DNA of 64,000 nt from a bacterium. GTDB taxonomy: Bacteria > Zhuqueibacterota > Zhuqueibacteria > Residuimicrobiales > Oceaniaggregativiventaceae. The position numbers were made by a program, and so were the translations under genes. Positions within the stretch are counted from its first letter, which is position 1, and each line of letters begins with the position of its first letter. Positions 2,330 through 8,189 of the stretch are shown here, piece by piece. The notes beneath the pieces are model-generated. The model was not told the origin of the DNA and searched no databases. It saw only the letters and a list, made by a program, of their open reading frames with translations. The DNA lies in NCBI GenBank assembly GCA_029565675.1, contig JAKQNP010000042.1, positions 1-64,000 of the forward strand. The letters run 5' to 3'.

Positions 2330-2914
2330 TTAACGCAGTTCTTCTTTTTTCTCTTCTGGTGCGCCAGGTATAAAATGAGCAGTTTCGATAAACAATTTTG
2401 GATCATAGCCGTGCTGTTGCAGCAGGCTGTCGATCGACGCCCGGTCACCTGCATCGAGTTTTGCTTCGCGCGCCAGAATCCAGCCGAGTTTTCGCGAGGG
2501 TGTGCCCACCACTACATAGCGGTAGTCGGCATCGAGCCCGATAATCCAATAATCGCCCCAGAACAGCGAAATACCGAGAAAGCGGACAAAACTCACCTGC
2601 AATTTGGCATTGCTCTGCTTGTCAACGATGCGGGCGATGGCCTGCGCCTCATTCGTGCTGCCGTCCTGGCGCCGGCAGCTGTTGATGACGTCGATGCGGC
2701 CATCGTCGCGCAACCGGTACTCGGCGGTGGTGTTGCTGTTGCAATTGCGCTGAAAACGGTTGGGCAACCTGGCGATTTCATACCAGAGTCCGGCATAACG
2801 CTCAATCTCAACGCGGTCAACAGTTTGTAAGGGGGCAAGAGACTGTTCGGCTTGTTGGCAAAACGCCAACAGCGGACAGAACAGCAGAAGAAGGCGATAG
2901 TTCCTCATGATCAT
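2330..2914 (-). CDS. blc: Blc-type outer-membrane lipocalin (lipoprotein)
   Basis: The 194-residue product has an N-terminal hydrophobic stretch ending in LAFC, a plausible lipobox, so it is probably lipid-anchored. The lipocalin signature YAGLWYEIARLPNRFQRNC (G-x-W in the first strand) is followed by DVINSCR, FWGDYWIIGLD and YVVVGTPSRKLGWILAR, all typical of bacterial Blc and apolipoprotein-D-like proteins. These bind lipids or small hydrophobic ligands at the outer membrane. Two ATGs six bases apart are possible; the second (2908) has better spacing from GGAG. It lies upstream of the GH97 gene on the same strand with a gap of about 290 bp, so co-transcription is uncertain. Confidence 0.88.
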   Translation of the reverse strand: MIMRNYRLLLLFCPLLAFCQQAEQSLAPLQTVDRVEIERYAGLWYEIARLPNRFQRNCNSNTTAEYRLRDDGRIDVINSCRRQDGSTNEAQAIARIVDKQSNAKLQVSFVRFLGISLFWGDYWIIGLDADYRYVVVGTPSRKLGWILAREAKLDAGDRASIDSLLQQHGYDPKLFIETAHFIPGAPEEKKEELR

Positions 2915-3840: not shown

Positions 3841-3871
3841 ATTTCGGGGTATGACTGCCATACCCCGAAAT
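3841..3871. terminator. Bidirectional hairpin terminator between convergent genes
   Basis: A perfect 13-bp inverted repeat, ATTTCGGGGTATG / CATACCCCGAAAT, encloses a 5-base loop (ACTGC). It sits 11 bases after the stop of the small membrane gene and directly abuts the stop codon of the convergent amidotransferase gene. The A/T-rich ends of the arms and the following TTCATTTTAT give U-rich tracts, so one element can end both transcripts. Confidence 0.75.
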
Positions 3872-5803
3872 TCATTTTATCAACACCATTCGGCCTACGG
3901 TTCGTTCACTGCTGCTCTGCAGCGTATAAAAATACAACCCGCTTGTCACCGCACGACCAGCCCAATCCTTGCCGTTCCAGGTAAATCGATGCGCACCCGC
4001 AGCCAATTGCCCTTCGAAGAGGCGAGTGACCAATCGGCCGTTGAGATCATAAACATCGATTTTGACCCGGCGGTCGATGTTGAGCGCAAAGTCAATGACC
4101 GTCGACTCATTGAACGGATTGGGATAATTTCGCGTCAGGGTAAAAGAACCTGGAAGCGGTTTTCCGGGAATGTCGGCCACCGCTGAGGTGCTTTCATCCA
4201 GGTATTGGACAATCAAACGTGGATGATTCATGAACCAATCGTCATCGTCGTCTTCGAAATAGAAATATTGATCTGTGGGGTAGGTGTCAGTTTTTTCGTA
4301 TAGCAAGCCGCAGTTGCTGTCGGGATGATCAACCCAGTTCTGGATGAGCGCAGCCGGCAGCTGCACTGTGCCGTCAAAGGCTATGCCGGTGCCATCGCCT
4401 TTCAAGGTATAGGAGGCAATGGGTTGCGTAGAGCGGTCGCTGTTGCCTTTGCAGCCGGCGATTTCCCAGGGTAAAAGGCTGTGTTGAGCCGCGTTCCAGG
4501 TCACCTCACCGGTGCGGGCGGTATTGTTGAGATAGCCGATGCCCTCATTCCAGGGTTTCAGGATTCGATAGACGGCAATATCAGCCCGGTGTGAGCTGTT
4601 GGTCTGGCTGTTCACGCCGCCGGCAAATAGGAAAGTCAATTTACCAGCCACGATCTTTTTCCCCGCCAGATGTTTTTCCAGGTCTTTGAATTGCACCAGG
4701 CCGGCATTCCACCAATAGAGCTCATCTTTGCCAGGTGTTCCACGCTGACCGTAATTGCAGTCCGGAAAAGCCTGACGGATGGCTGTCGCTTCGTTGCCGG
4801 CATAGTTTTGGCCGTTGATCGGCTTGCCGTTTTGGAAAATGATCTCATGATGGCCGTCTGGTGTGATGGGAAAGACGGATTGATTGCTGTCCACAAACGC
4901 CGCAGACTGGGCGCGGACCGCAAAATAGAGTGTTGACTCGGGATCCAACCCGGTTATTTCATACTGCAGATCGGTTGTTTCGTAGCGAGGATGGTCAAAA
5001 TCCAGTTTTGCCACATCGTCGGCACAAAATATTCGATAAAGAACCGGTTCCGACGTTTTTGCCGGCCACCAACTTATCCTGACTTTTCCTGGCTCGCCGG
5101 GAAAACCGTTTGCTTCCGCGATTCCATGAAATTTGCGTTGCATGATGATATTGCGAAAGTTTGCCAGAATCGCTGGTCCGGCGCTGCTAAGATTGTTCAT
5201 ACTTTCGATGTGGAGCTGGCTGCCATAGAGGGGCATGCTGATATGGCGGACAAAGGTTACATAGCAGGTCCGGGTGGAAGCGAGATTCCGATAAGAATCC
5301 GGCAAATCGGCGATGCTGTAGGTATGGGCGGCGCGGTCGACGTAGGGATTGGGCGCGCCGGCAAAGATTTCATCCCCCTCGAAAATCGTCGCTGTTTGAT
5401 TGCCGCTTTCCGGACTGCGCTGGGCGCAGATACCGCCATATGCCATCAGCAGGAACTGCAGTCCGGCGCAAAAACCGATGGTCGGTCTGCCCGGGTTGCG
5501 CAGGAGTTCCACATATGAATCCAGACTGCCGTCGTAAAACGGCACATCCGAGGTGTTGCCGCCGGGGATGACAAATGCGTCCGCTTTGCAGGAATCAGCT
5601 CTCGTGCGGGAGGCGTAGTACCAGTTGTCGTGAACAACCCAGACATCGGTGAATCCGCGATAGCTGGATTCGAATTTGGGCACCAGGCTGGGCGGCTGCA
5701 CCGGTCGGTCCCCATATTCGACTGTGTAGAGGATTGGCTGACCAACAGCGACCGCGATCAAAAAAAGTGCAAAAACAAAGATTGCTGAAGCCTTTTTAAA
5801 CAT
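3872..5803 (-). CDS. Secreted class I glutamine-amidotransferase-like protein with FN3, beta-sandwich and T9SS/FlgD-like C-terminal tail
   Basis: The 643-residue product begins with a signal peptide (MFKKASAIFVFALFLIAVAVGQ). Residues ~25-215 look like a class I glutamine amidotransferase fold: FVIPGGNTSD, then a nucleophile elbow IGFCAGLQ with Cys112, then YGSQLHIES with His198 and Glu200, matching a Cys-His-Glu triad. A fibronectin type III-like domain follows (~235-318). Next comes a beta-rich region (~325-545) with WNEGIGYLNN, TWNAAQ and LLPWEIAG, resembling the DNRLRE/secreted carbohydrate-binding type. Residues ~560-643 form a FlgD-like/Por secretion tail (NYPNPFNESTVIDF...GLYFYTL). No synthetase or glutaminase partner domain is present, so ammonia channelling is unlikely; a secreted hydrolase or peptidase is a better guess. 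Exact substrate unknown. Confidence 0.8.
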   Translation of the reverse strand: MFKKASAIFVFALFLIAVAVGQPILYTVEYGDRPVQPPSLVPKFESSYRGFTDVWVVHDNWYYASRTRADSCKADAFVIPGGNTSDVPFYDGSLDSYVELLRNPGRPTIGFCAGLQFLLMAYGGICAQRSPESGNQTATIFEGDEIFAGAPNPYVDRAAHTYSIADLPDSYRNLASTRTCYVTFVRHISMPLYGSQLHIESMNNLSSAGPAILANFRNIIMQRKFHGIAEANGFPGEPGKVRISWWPAKTSEPVLYRIFCADDVAKLDFDHPRYETTDLQYEITGLDPESTLYFAVRAQSAAFVDSNQSVFPITPDGHHEIIFQNGKPINGQNYAGNEATAIRQAFPDCNYGQRGTPGKDELYWWNAGLVQFKDLEKHLAGKKIVAGKLTFLFAGGVNSQTNSSHRADIAVYRILKPWNEGIGYLNNTARTGEVTWNAAQHSLLPWEIAGCKGNSDRSTQPIASYTLKGDGTGIAFDGTVQLPAALIQNWVDHPDSNCGLLYEKTDTYPTDQYFYFEDDDDDWFMNHPRLIVQYLDESTSAVADIPGKPLPGSFTLTRNYPNPFNESTVIDFALNIDRRVKIDVYDLNGRLVTRLFEGQLAAGAHRFTWNGKDWAGRAVTSGLYFYTLQSSSERTVGRMVLIK

Positions 5804-5971: not shown

Positions 5972-5987
5972 CTGTGGGGGGAGGAGG

Positions 5988-6061
5988 TGGGCAATACTGG
6001 ATTTGAACCAGTGACCTCTGGTATGTGAGACCAGCGCTCTAACCAACTGAGCTAATCGCCC
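5988..6061 (-). tRNA. tRNA-Val (anticodon CAC)
   Basis: The minus-strand sequence starting GGGCGATTAGCTCAGTTGG folds as a full cloverleaf. The acceptor stem is GGGCGAT/ATTGCCC (one G-U pair), the anticodon stem CTGGT/ACCAG has loop CTCACAT giving anticodon CAC, and the T arm reads GTTCAAATC. CAC decodes GUG valine. The bases after the discriminator A read CCT, so the 3' CCA is not encoded and must be added by a nucleotidyltransferase. ORF 5924..6157 across it is spurious. Confidence 0.95.
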
Positions 6062-6272: not shown

Positions 6273-8189
6273 ATGCAGCCATTTTTACCGCTTAACTCAG
6301 AACGTCTCGATGTGTTGTTAAAAAGCTATCCACAGGCTCACATCGGTGTGATCGGCGACTTTTGTCTCGATGCCTATTGGGTCATCGATATGAGTGCCAG
6401 CGAGATCTCGCTGGAAACAGGAAAGCCGACGCAACCGGTGCGCAGGCAGCGCTATTCTTTGGGCGGAGCGGGGAATGTGGTGGCTAACCTCAGCGAGCTC
6501 GGTGTTGGTTCGCTGTCGGTTTTTGGTTTGATCGGGCCAGATCCCTTTGGCACCCGCATGCGCGAGCTTTTGCTGCAGCGGTGCGTCAATATCGAGAATC
6601 TGCTTTGCGCTTCCAGCGACAGTTGGCAGACGCTGACTTATTGCAAACCCTATATCGAAGACGATGAATTGCCACGGCTGGATATGGGCAATTTTAACTG
6701 TTGTCCAGATGAACTGGCTGTCGATTTGATCGCGCGACTGGAACGCTCATTGCCACAATTTGATCTGGTGATCATCAATCAACAGGTGCTCTCCGGCATC
6801 CATACAGCCTGTTTTCAGGATCGACTCGCAGCTCTTATCCGCAGTCATCCGGAATGCCGTTTTCTATATGACGGGCGGCATGTGAAGGGGCGTTATGACG
6901 GCGCCTGGCTCAAAGTCAACGATCATGAAGCTCTCCGCCTTGTCGGACAAGGAAAAGATGCTCAGGAACGCGTTTTACGGCGCGAAGTGGAGCAGGTAGC
7001 CGAGCAGCTCGCCGCAAAACTCAACCACCCAATTTTCATAACCCGCGGTGATCGTGGCTGTCTGGTGGGGGATCCGCGGGGTTGCACTGCCATTCCCGGC
7101 ATTCAGGTGATCGGCCGAATCGACACAGTCGGAGCAGGGGACAGTTTTCTCGCCGGTCTGGCCGCATCGCTGGCAGTGGGTGCGGAGCCGGTTGAAGCCG
7201 CTCAGGTGGGCAATTTCGTCGCTGCAGTCACCATTACCCGCATCGGAGTGACCGGCACAGCGACAGGGAACGAAGTCAACGCCGTCGGCAGTCGTCCCGC
7301 CTATCTATACGAACCGGAACTGGCTGAAGATGTGCGCCTGGCTCGCTATTATGGCGATACAGAGATAGAAATCATCGAGTCAGTCCCTGAGAATCTGAAC
7401 GTGCGCACCGCCATTTTTGATCATGACGGCACCATTTCCACTTTGCGGCAGGGTTGGGAACAGGTGATGGAACCCATGATGATGCATGCCATCCTGGCCG
7501 ACCACTACAACGATGCAGATGAGGCGCTCTACCATAGGGTTTTGCTGCGGGTGCGGCGCTATATCGATCAAACGACGGGCATTCAAACCTTGACGCAGAT
7601 GGTTGGTCTGCGGGATTTGGTACGAGAATTCGGCATCGTGCCGGAAGAAGAGATACTCGACGCCGCCGGTTATAAATCGATTTACAACGAAGCCTTGATG
7701 CAACTGGTCAACCGTCGCCGGGAACGGCTGCGGCGCGGTGAGCTTGCGGTAGAAGATTTTACCGTAAAGAACGCGGTGCTGTTTCTGCGCGCCTTGGCTG
7801 CACACGGCGTCAATCTCTACCTCGCCAGCGGCACGGACGTCGGCGATGTGCGTGCTGAAGCAGAGGCTTTGGGTTATGCAGATTTGTTCCAGGGCCGTAT
7901 CTATGGCGCAGTCGGTCAGGTGACGCGCGAAGCCAAACAGATCGTTTTGGATCGCATTCTGTCAGAGATCCACTCGCCAGAAACCGAGTTGGTGACCTTT
8001 GGCGATGGACCGGTGGAAATTCGTGAAACCCGCTTGCGTGGCGGTTTAGCGATCGGAGTGGCAAGCGATGAAATCCGCCGCTTTGAACTGAATACCGGCA
8101 AGCGCAGCCGTCTGATCCAGGCGGGTTCTTCGATCTTGATTGCCGATTTTTCCCAGATGAAGGCCCTTTTGCAGCTGTTGCGGCTGTGA
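6273..8189 (+). CDS. HldE-like PfkB sugar kinase fused to HAD phosphatase
   Basis: The 638-residue protein has two enzymes in one chain. Residues ~15-345 form a ribokinase/PfkB kinase close to the heptose-7-phosphate kinase domain of HldE: IGVIGDFCLDAYW, YSLGGAGNVVANLSELG and the anion hole/catalytic motif DTVGAGDSF with Asp290 as base. Residues ~378-638 form a haloacid dehalogenase phosphatase with a helical cap: FDHDGTIST (Asp383 nucleophile, Asp385), YLASGTD, then FGDGPVEI. HldE normally carries a cytidylyltransferase-fold domain here, so the HAD replaces it. A plausible but unproven role is phosphorylating a sugar phosphate and removing another phosphate in sequence, as HldA plus GmhB do. 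The start is supported by AAGG 12 bases upstream. Confidence 0.85.
   Translation: MQPFLPLNSERLDVLLKSYPQAHIGVIGDFCLDAYWVIDMSASEISLETGKPTQPVRRQRYSLGGAGNVVANLSELGVGSLSVFGLIGPDPFGTRMRELLLQRCVNIENLLCASSDSWQTLTYCKPYIEDDELPRLDMGNFNCCPDELAVDLIARLERSLPQFDLVIINQQVLSGIHTACFQDRLAALIRSHPECRFLYDGRHVKGRYDGAWLKVNDHEALRLVGQGKDAQERVLRREVEQVAEQLAAKLNHPIFITRGDRGCLVGDPRGCTAIPGIQVIGRIDTVGAGDSFLAGLAASLAVGAEPVEAAQVGNFVAAVTITRIGVTGTATGNEVNAVGSRPAYLYEPELAEDVRLARYYGDTEIEIIESVPENLNVRTAIFDHDGTISTLRQGWEQVMEPMMMHAILADHYNDADEALYHRVLLRVRRYIDQTTGIQTLTQMVGLRDLVREFGIVPEEEILDAAGYKSIYNEALMQLVNRRRERLRRGELAVEDFTVKNAVLFLRALAAHGVNLYLASGTDVGDVRAEAEALGYADLFQGRIYGAVGQVTREAKQIVLDRILSEIHSPETELVTFGDGPVEIRETRLRGGLAIGVASDEIRRFELNTGKRSRLIQAGSSILIADFSQMKALLQLLRL

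Follow-up and report, generated by a model that had tools for sequence, protein, structure and literature searches.

Triad glutaminases are normally silent until a synthetase partner signals, which avoids wasting ammonia, and the glutaminases of the PabA/TrpG type are cytosolic. Gamma-glutamyl hydrolase and PuuD (MEROPS C26) are stand-alone Cys-His-Glu hydrolases of gamma-glutamyl bonds, the animal enzyme being secreted. GGP1 is a separate class I glutamine amidotransferase (GATase)-type enzyme, and cyanophycinase shares its superfamily fold with class I GATases. Plant GGP1 cuts gamma-glutamyl bonds (PMC3042935), and bacterial extracellular cyanophycinase (peptidase S51) is an exported hydrolase of an amide-linked polymer (PMC3235067). 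In PabA, the triad consists of C79, H168 and E170 and the oxyanion pair of G52 and L80, removal of H128 nearly abolishes glutamine binding, and the active site is completed by PabB (PMC7617670). GMP synthase GATase subunits without their partner are inactive or weak (PMC10526850). Since GMP synthase subunits are weak alone and PabA relies on PabB to complete its site, a lone domain of this type may need adaptations of its own.

The window, a 64,000-nucleotide stretch of bacterial DNA, carries on its minus strand a 643-aa open reading frame with an ATG start and no internal stops. An earlier note on this DNA had read the product as a GATase fold followed by FN3-like, DNRLRE-like and FlgD/T9SS-tail modules, and profile matches in this protein and in its four full-length orthologs bear out that order. 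Given the E-values and these orthologs, the likelihood that such a match arose by chance is negligible. The layout is as follows.

3872-5803 (minus strand): the whole gene, coding for 643 aa: a predicted exported GATase, then the FN3-like and DNRLRE-type modules and the T9SS sorting tail (open reading frame and translation; four full-length orthologs, 55-64% identity)
5741-5803 (minus strand): putative Sec signal peptide spanning residues 1-21, with invariant Q22 as the first residue after the predicted cleavage site (read from the sequence; orthologs diverge in sequence and keep the pattern)
5138-5740 (minus strand): class I GATase domain, residues 22-222 (PF00117, 43.3 bits; PDB profile 2a9v, E 1.4e-14; model pLDDT 82; Foldseek 2a9v, E 1.6e-14)
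4889-5113 (minus strand): FN3-like module, residues about 231-305 (fn3 in four of five family members, best E 1.9e-5; below cut-off in the window protein)
4208-4786 (minus strand): DNRLRE-type module, residues 340-532 (NCBIfam NF033679, cut-off 34 bits: 30.3 in the window protein, 36.2 and 39.2 in two orthologs)
3884-4126 (minus strand): T9SS type A sorting domain / FlgD-Ig-like tail, residues 560-640 (TIGR04183, 33.1 bits; PF18962, 30.4; PF13860, 39.2)

By profile, the N-terminal domain is a member of the PF00117 class I glutamine amidotransferases. The Pfam match spans residues 70-216, scores 43.3 bits where the cut-off is 22.8 (E 4e-11), and recurs in all five members of the family. A whole-genome search with PF00117 returned six matches over cut-off including this protein, the remaining five reading as ordinary CarA, GuaA, PyrG, HisH and PuuD-like enzymes. 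NCBIfam searches also brought up GMP-synthase-type GATase models, and a single-sequence PDB search ranked the GMP synthase subunit A and PabA-type glutaminase families first. A model of residues 20-236 reached a mean pLDDT of 82 and a pTM of 0.82; its nine-sequence alignment held GuaA-type rows, so that the model is not wholly independent of GuaA and could favor that fold. The top solved structure in Foldseek was 2a9v, GMP synthase subunit A (probability 1.00, TM 0.71/0.77); next came aminodeoxychorismate synthase and further GATases from GMP synthases. The earlier note had proposed comparison with GATase1, gamma-glutamyl hydrolase and DJ-1/PfpI folds and had named a fold unrelated to GATase1 as a refuting result. 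No such fold emerged: the model matched GMP-synthase GATases best, and the other two folds were absent from the best 50 Foldseek matches. Peptidase family C26 was likewise missing from the Pfam matches of the window protein up to E 1. These results point specifically to GMP synthase subunit A and PabA-type glutaminases as the closest relatives, not to gamma-glutamyl hydrolase or DJ-1/PfpI.

GMP synthase itself was considered as an identity and rejected, because the scores fall short of the equivalog cut-offs and no synthetase partner came to light. The window protein scored 54.7 bits against 172 and 57.7 against 198 (TIGR00888 / PRK00758), and scores across it and its orthologs were 46-61 bits against the cut-off of 198. 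No ATP-pyrophosphatase domain was found in the protein by Pfam or seen among the neighboring genes read, and the genome has a separate two-domain GuaA of its own.

We aligned the domain with GuaA, CarA, HisH and PyrG from the same genome, which placed the following active-site positions.

5468-5470 (minus strand): Cys112, predicted catalytic nucleophile in a GFCAGLQ elbow; it lines up with the nucleophile Cys in GuaA, CarA, HisH and PyrG and is equivalent by motif to PabA C79 (PMC7617670)
5210-5212 (minus strand): His198, triad (QLHIE), aligned with the QFHPE His and invariant in the family
5204-5206 (minus strand): Glu200, triad, aligned with the QFHPE Glu and invariant in the family
5558-5560 (minus strand): Gly82, in the PGG loop at the oxyanion-hole position; this loop corresponds in the alignment to GGP/NGP in GuaA and CarA, and the residue is equivalent by motif to PabA G52 (PMC7617670)
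5456-5458 (minus strand): Gln116, the Gln after the nucleophile (C-A-G-x-Q) at a glutamine-pocket position, invariant in the family; motif common to GuaA, CarA, HisH and PyrG
5324-5326 (minus strand): His160, second active-site His (RAAH[TS]Y), invariant across all aligned GATases and equivalent to PabA H128 (PMC7617670)

All six residues are invariant in the window protein and its four full-length orthologs, and the G-x-C-A-G-x-Q nucleophile motif and Q-x-H-x-E are kept. The apparently intact Cys112-His198-Glu200 triad reported earlier was thus correctly numbered, is fixed throughout the five-member family and aligns with known GATases. Its residues appear to occupy the positions of the GMP-synthase/PabA-type glutaminase triad, the proximity of Cys and His resting on alignment to solved structures. 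The family departs from the usual QxHPE in having QLHIE, with Ile replacing Pro, and its oxyanion loop is GGNTSD or GGSTSD, compared to the usual GGPxS. Further stretches, DNWYYASR and PFYDGSL among them, are invariant and family specific, and we infer that they may substitute for the contribution of a synthetase partner.

Read by eye, the N-terminus has MFKK, a hydrophobic run and a small residue before Q22-P23, a pair invariant in all five proteins. The sorting tail exceeded the cut-offs of 23 bits for TIGR04183 and 27 for PF18962. A search for T9SS machinery that covered SprA and PorU found both over cut-off: the SprA translocon (686 and 196 bits within one frame) and the PorU sortase (892 bits against 420). 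Since the genome encodes SprA, PorU and dozens of other proteins with similar sorting tails, T9SS delivery of the predicted GATase protein to the surface is plausible. The signal peptide pattern and the T9SS tail fit the earlier emphasis on export of a normally cytosolic fold. Exported members of the fold superfamily are known (animal gamma-glutamyl hydrolase; cyanophycinase, PMC3235067), so that export alone is not unprecedented. Separately, three further long proteins of 1608-1898 aa (G000:C62:706554-710630, G000:C62:85057-89196 and G000:C36:22171-25785) combine a partial, below-cut-off match to the PorU model with a tail, and are possible PorU/gingipain-like cysteine peptidases by sequence.

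The C-terminal modules were less well resolved. The fn3 match in the window protein is weak (15 bits, under cut-off), with the best E-value coming from one ortholog, and a full-length protein model (pLDDT 52) showed only strand-rich C-terminal modules, its quality being insufficient to search with the middle module for similar folds. In the profile search suggested earlier for the middle domain, NF033679 was over cut-off in two orthologs and under it here, and a PDB profile search returned only spurious matches to designed repeat proteins, with no related solved structure found. By analogy with polysaccharide-binding domains, the DNRLRE module might retain the protein at the surface.

We lean modestly towards a Sec-exported, T9SS-delivered triad cysteine amidase of gamma-glutamyl bonds, held near the surface or a polymer by its C-terminal modules. 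This reading builds on the observed domain content, the triad and pocket residues, the strong constraint described below and the T9SS genes in the genome. It accords with the earlier proposal of an extracellular or surface cysteine hydrolase, which profile matches, orthologs, the confident domain model and T9SS support, the activity being a prediction. Export, catalysis, a gamma-glutamyl preference and an anchoring role would then combine as follows. The domain would be a GMP-synthase/PabA-type class I glutaminase whose synthetase partner has been lost. Cys112, activated by His198 and Glu200, would attack a gamma-glutamyl amide carbonyl held in a Gly82/Ala113 oxyanion hole, with the glutamyl moiety held by Gln116 and His160; a thioester would form, ammonia or an amine (peptide) would leave, and water would release glutamate. 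Once the enzyme is secreted, its FN3, DNRLRE and tail modules would retain it at the cell surface or on an external polymer. Free glutamine or gamma-glutamyl peptides would be the most likely substrates. Points against this reading are the reliance of GMP synthase and PabA glutaminases on their partners, HIE in place of HPE, the changed oxyanion loop and the lack of a neighboring gene that reveals a substrate.

The same triad could instead serve an exported cysteine amidase or acyl hydrolase acting on another substrate. It could work as a deamidase on side-chain amides of surface proteins, or it could attack amides or esters of an extracellular polysaccharide bound by the DNRLRE module. The founding CBM96 module binds alginate and shares about 30% identity with members of the DNRLRE domain family, and DNRLRE/CBM96-type domains are present in lyases that act on alginate, hyaluronate and pectate (PMC9971899). 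The oxyanion loop and HIE motif differ from those of glutaminases, and the neighbors at L007/L049 include extracellular-type and sialidase-like genes (read by eye), which would also fit. However, Gln116 and His160 of the glutamine pocket are invariant, CBM96 was not matched in the window protein by Pfam at E<=1, the middle-domain profile found no related solved structure, and the neighbors are not common to different genera. We regard a different substrate as unlikely, though more probable than the two alternatives taken up below.

Operon context was considered as a guide to substrate and rejected, as neighbors differ between genera and gave no clue. Read by eye, they are housekeeping genes in G065, a transporter in G050 and quinoprotein-like genes in G048/G049. 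Several features around the gene were recorded in their own right. One gene (6273-8189, plus strand) encodes a 638-aa fusion of a PfkB-family sugar kinase with a HAD hydrolase; because the protein has a full-length match in three genomes of the window's taxonomic family, while in G048 and G049 the HAD part alone matches, as a separate 291-aa frame, it looks like a family-level gene fusion. On the strand of the GATase gene, a Blc-like bacterial lipocalin (2330-2914, minus strand; Pfam Lipocalin_2, E 4.6e-45) is encoded about 1 kb downstream, and a tRNA-Val(CAC) (5986-6061, minus strand) some 180 bases upstream. At 3841-3871, a 13-bp inverted repeat, ATTTCGGGGTATG...CATACCCCGAAAT, abuts the GATase stop codon after the end of a small plus-strand ORF, of which it is possibly the terminator.

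The full-length orthologs come from G048, G049 (also L007), G050 and G065, and identity among the five proteins goes down to 53-55%. The N-terminal domain scored high (430-457 bits) in just five of 82 genomes of the phylum, always in single copy. The next-best matches there reached at most 54 bits and, among the matches listed below the family, lay mostly in frames of GuaA size (about 515 aa) or PabA/TrpG size (about 200 aa). The same five, and no additional members, were recovered from 388 genomes of wider kinship at a strict limit of E<=1e-22. No viral relatives of the domain were found in the viral-contig collection, and plasmid relatives were discarded, the matches listed being enzymes of the GuaA and PabA types or stretches without annotation. 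Because the gene is missing from the nearest congener, G047, and from two further genomes of the same taxonomic family, its distribution is patchy.

For G048 and G049, a pair in which dS is unsaturated, dN/dS was 0.094 in the GATase domain, 0.12 in FN3, 0.14 in DNRLRE and 0.27 in the tail, making the GATase domain, 94% identical between the two, the most constrained mature module. Across taxonomic families (the window against G049/G065), the GATase domain of this family is 78%/69% identical, and that of the housekeeping enzyme GuaA 66%/62%. The low dN/dS and this higher cross-family identity argue for a working enzyme rather than a relic, although recent transfer could also raise identity. These data bear on a further alternative, in which the fold is retained as an exported, non-catalytic binding domain. 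Altered HPE and GGP motifs and the often weak activity of isolated GATase subunits (PMC10526850) are consistent with such a pseudo-enzyme. We consider it improbable, since a triad usually drifts once catalysis is lost, whereas here the triad, second His and Gln116 are invariant down to the lowest identities and the GATase domain is under stronger constraint than the other modules. An ordinary cytosolic GATase, with signal peptide and tail from misassembly or a tail unused for secretion, is scarcely credible: class I GATases are mostly cytosolic and the signal peptide was judged by eye alone, but the identical full-length order recurs in four other genomes with different surroundings, and the genome holds SprA, PorU and dozens of such tails.

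Returning to the proposed exported gamma-glutamyl amidase, its origin was less clear. Full-length identity across taxonomic families was 63-64% and 55%, compared to somewhat lower values of 51-53% and 49% for XseA, which is compatible either with horizontal transfer or with strong constraint plus losses. A tree placed the family within an open fork that also contains GuaA sequences. Its branch there is long (4.1), so that long-branch attraction is possible, and the PuuD-like protein of the genome forms a separate branch. We tentatively suggest, as a possibility that falls short of an even chance, that a GMP-synthase/PabA-type domain minus its partner and plus Sec/T9SS export gave a gamma-glutamyl amidase that stands alone at the cell surface; this extracellular class I GATase would have arisen separately from gamma-glutamyl hydrolase. 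If true, a partner-free extracellular family would reveal what is required to free a glutaminase domain, and would add an uncharacterized way for uncultured bacteria to obtain nitrogen, with glutamine or gamma-glutamyl compounds as the source. In genome annotation, it would caution that a GMP-synthase-like hit can be a secreted enzyme.

Among known systems, GMP synthase subunit A and the GuaA GATase (PRK00758, TIGR00888; PDB 2a9v, 2lxn) share with this family the fold, the Cys-His-Glu triad, the second His, the Gln after the nucleophile and a TCxV...PLYG/PIYG stretch. The family differs in its predicted export, in lacking an ATP-pyrophosphatase partner in the protein or alongside, and in having HIE for HPE and GGNTSD for GGPxS. 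PabA/TrpG glutaminase subunits (PF00117; PDB 8hx6, 8rp0) are alike in fold and active-site positions (PMC7617670), but pair with a synthase that completes the site. Gamma-glutamyl hydrolase and PuuD stand further off, with no C26 Pfam match, none of the best 50 fold matches and the PuuD-like protein of the same genome on another branch, while cyanophycinase has a Ser nucleophile and no sequence match to the family. CBM96/DNRLRE domains (NF033679; PMC9971899) resemble the middle module, which is over cut-off in two orthologs, although it has no CBM96 match. The domain order, described earlier as unlike any characterized protein, likewise had no counterpart in the literature searched, coverage of which was partial. 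Collectively, the parts of this protein are known and their combination is without a described precedent that we found, while exported relatives of the fold exist in gamma-glutamyl hydrolase and cyanophycinase.
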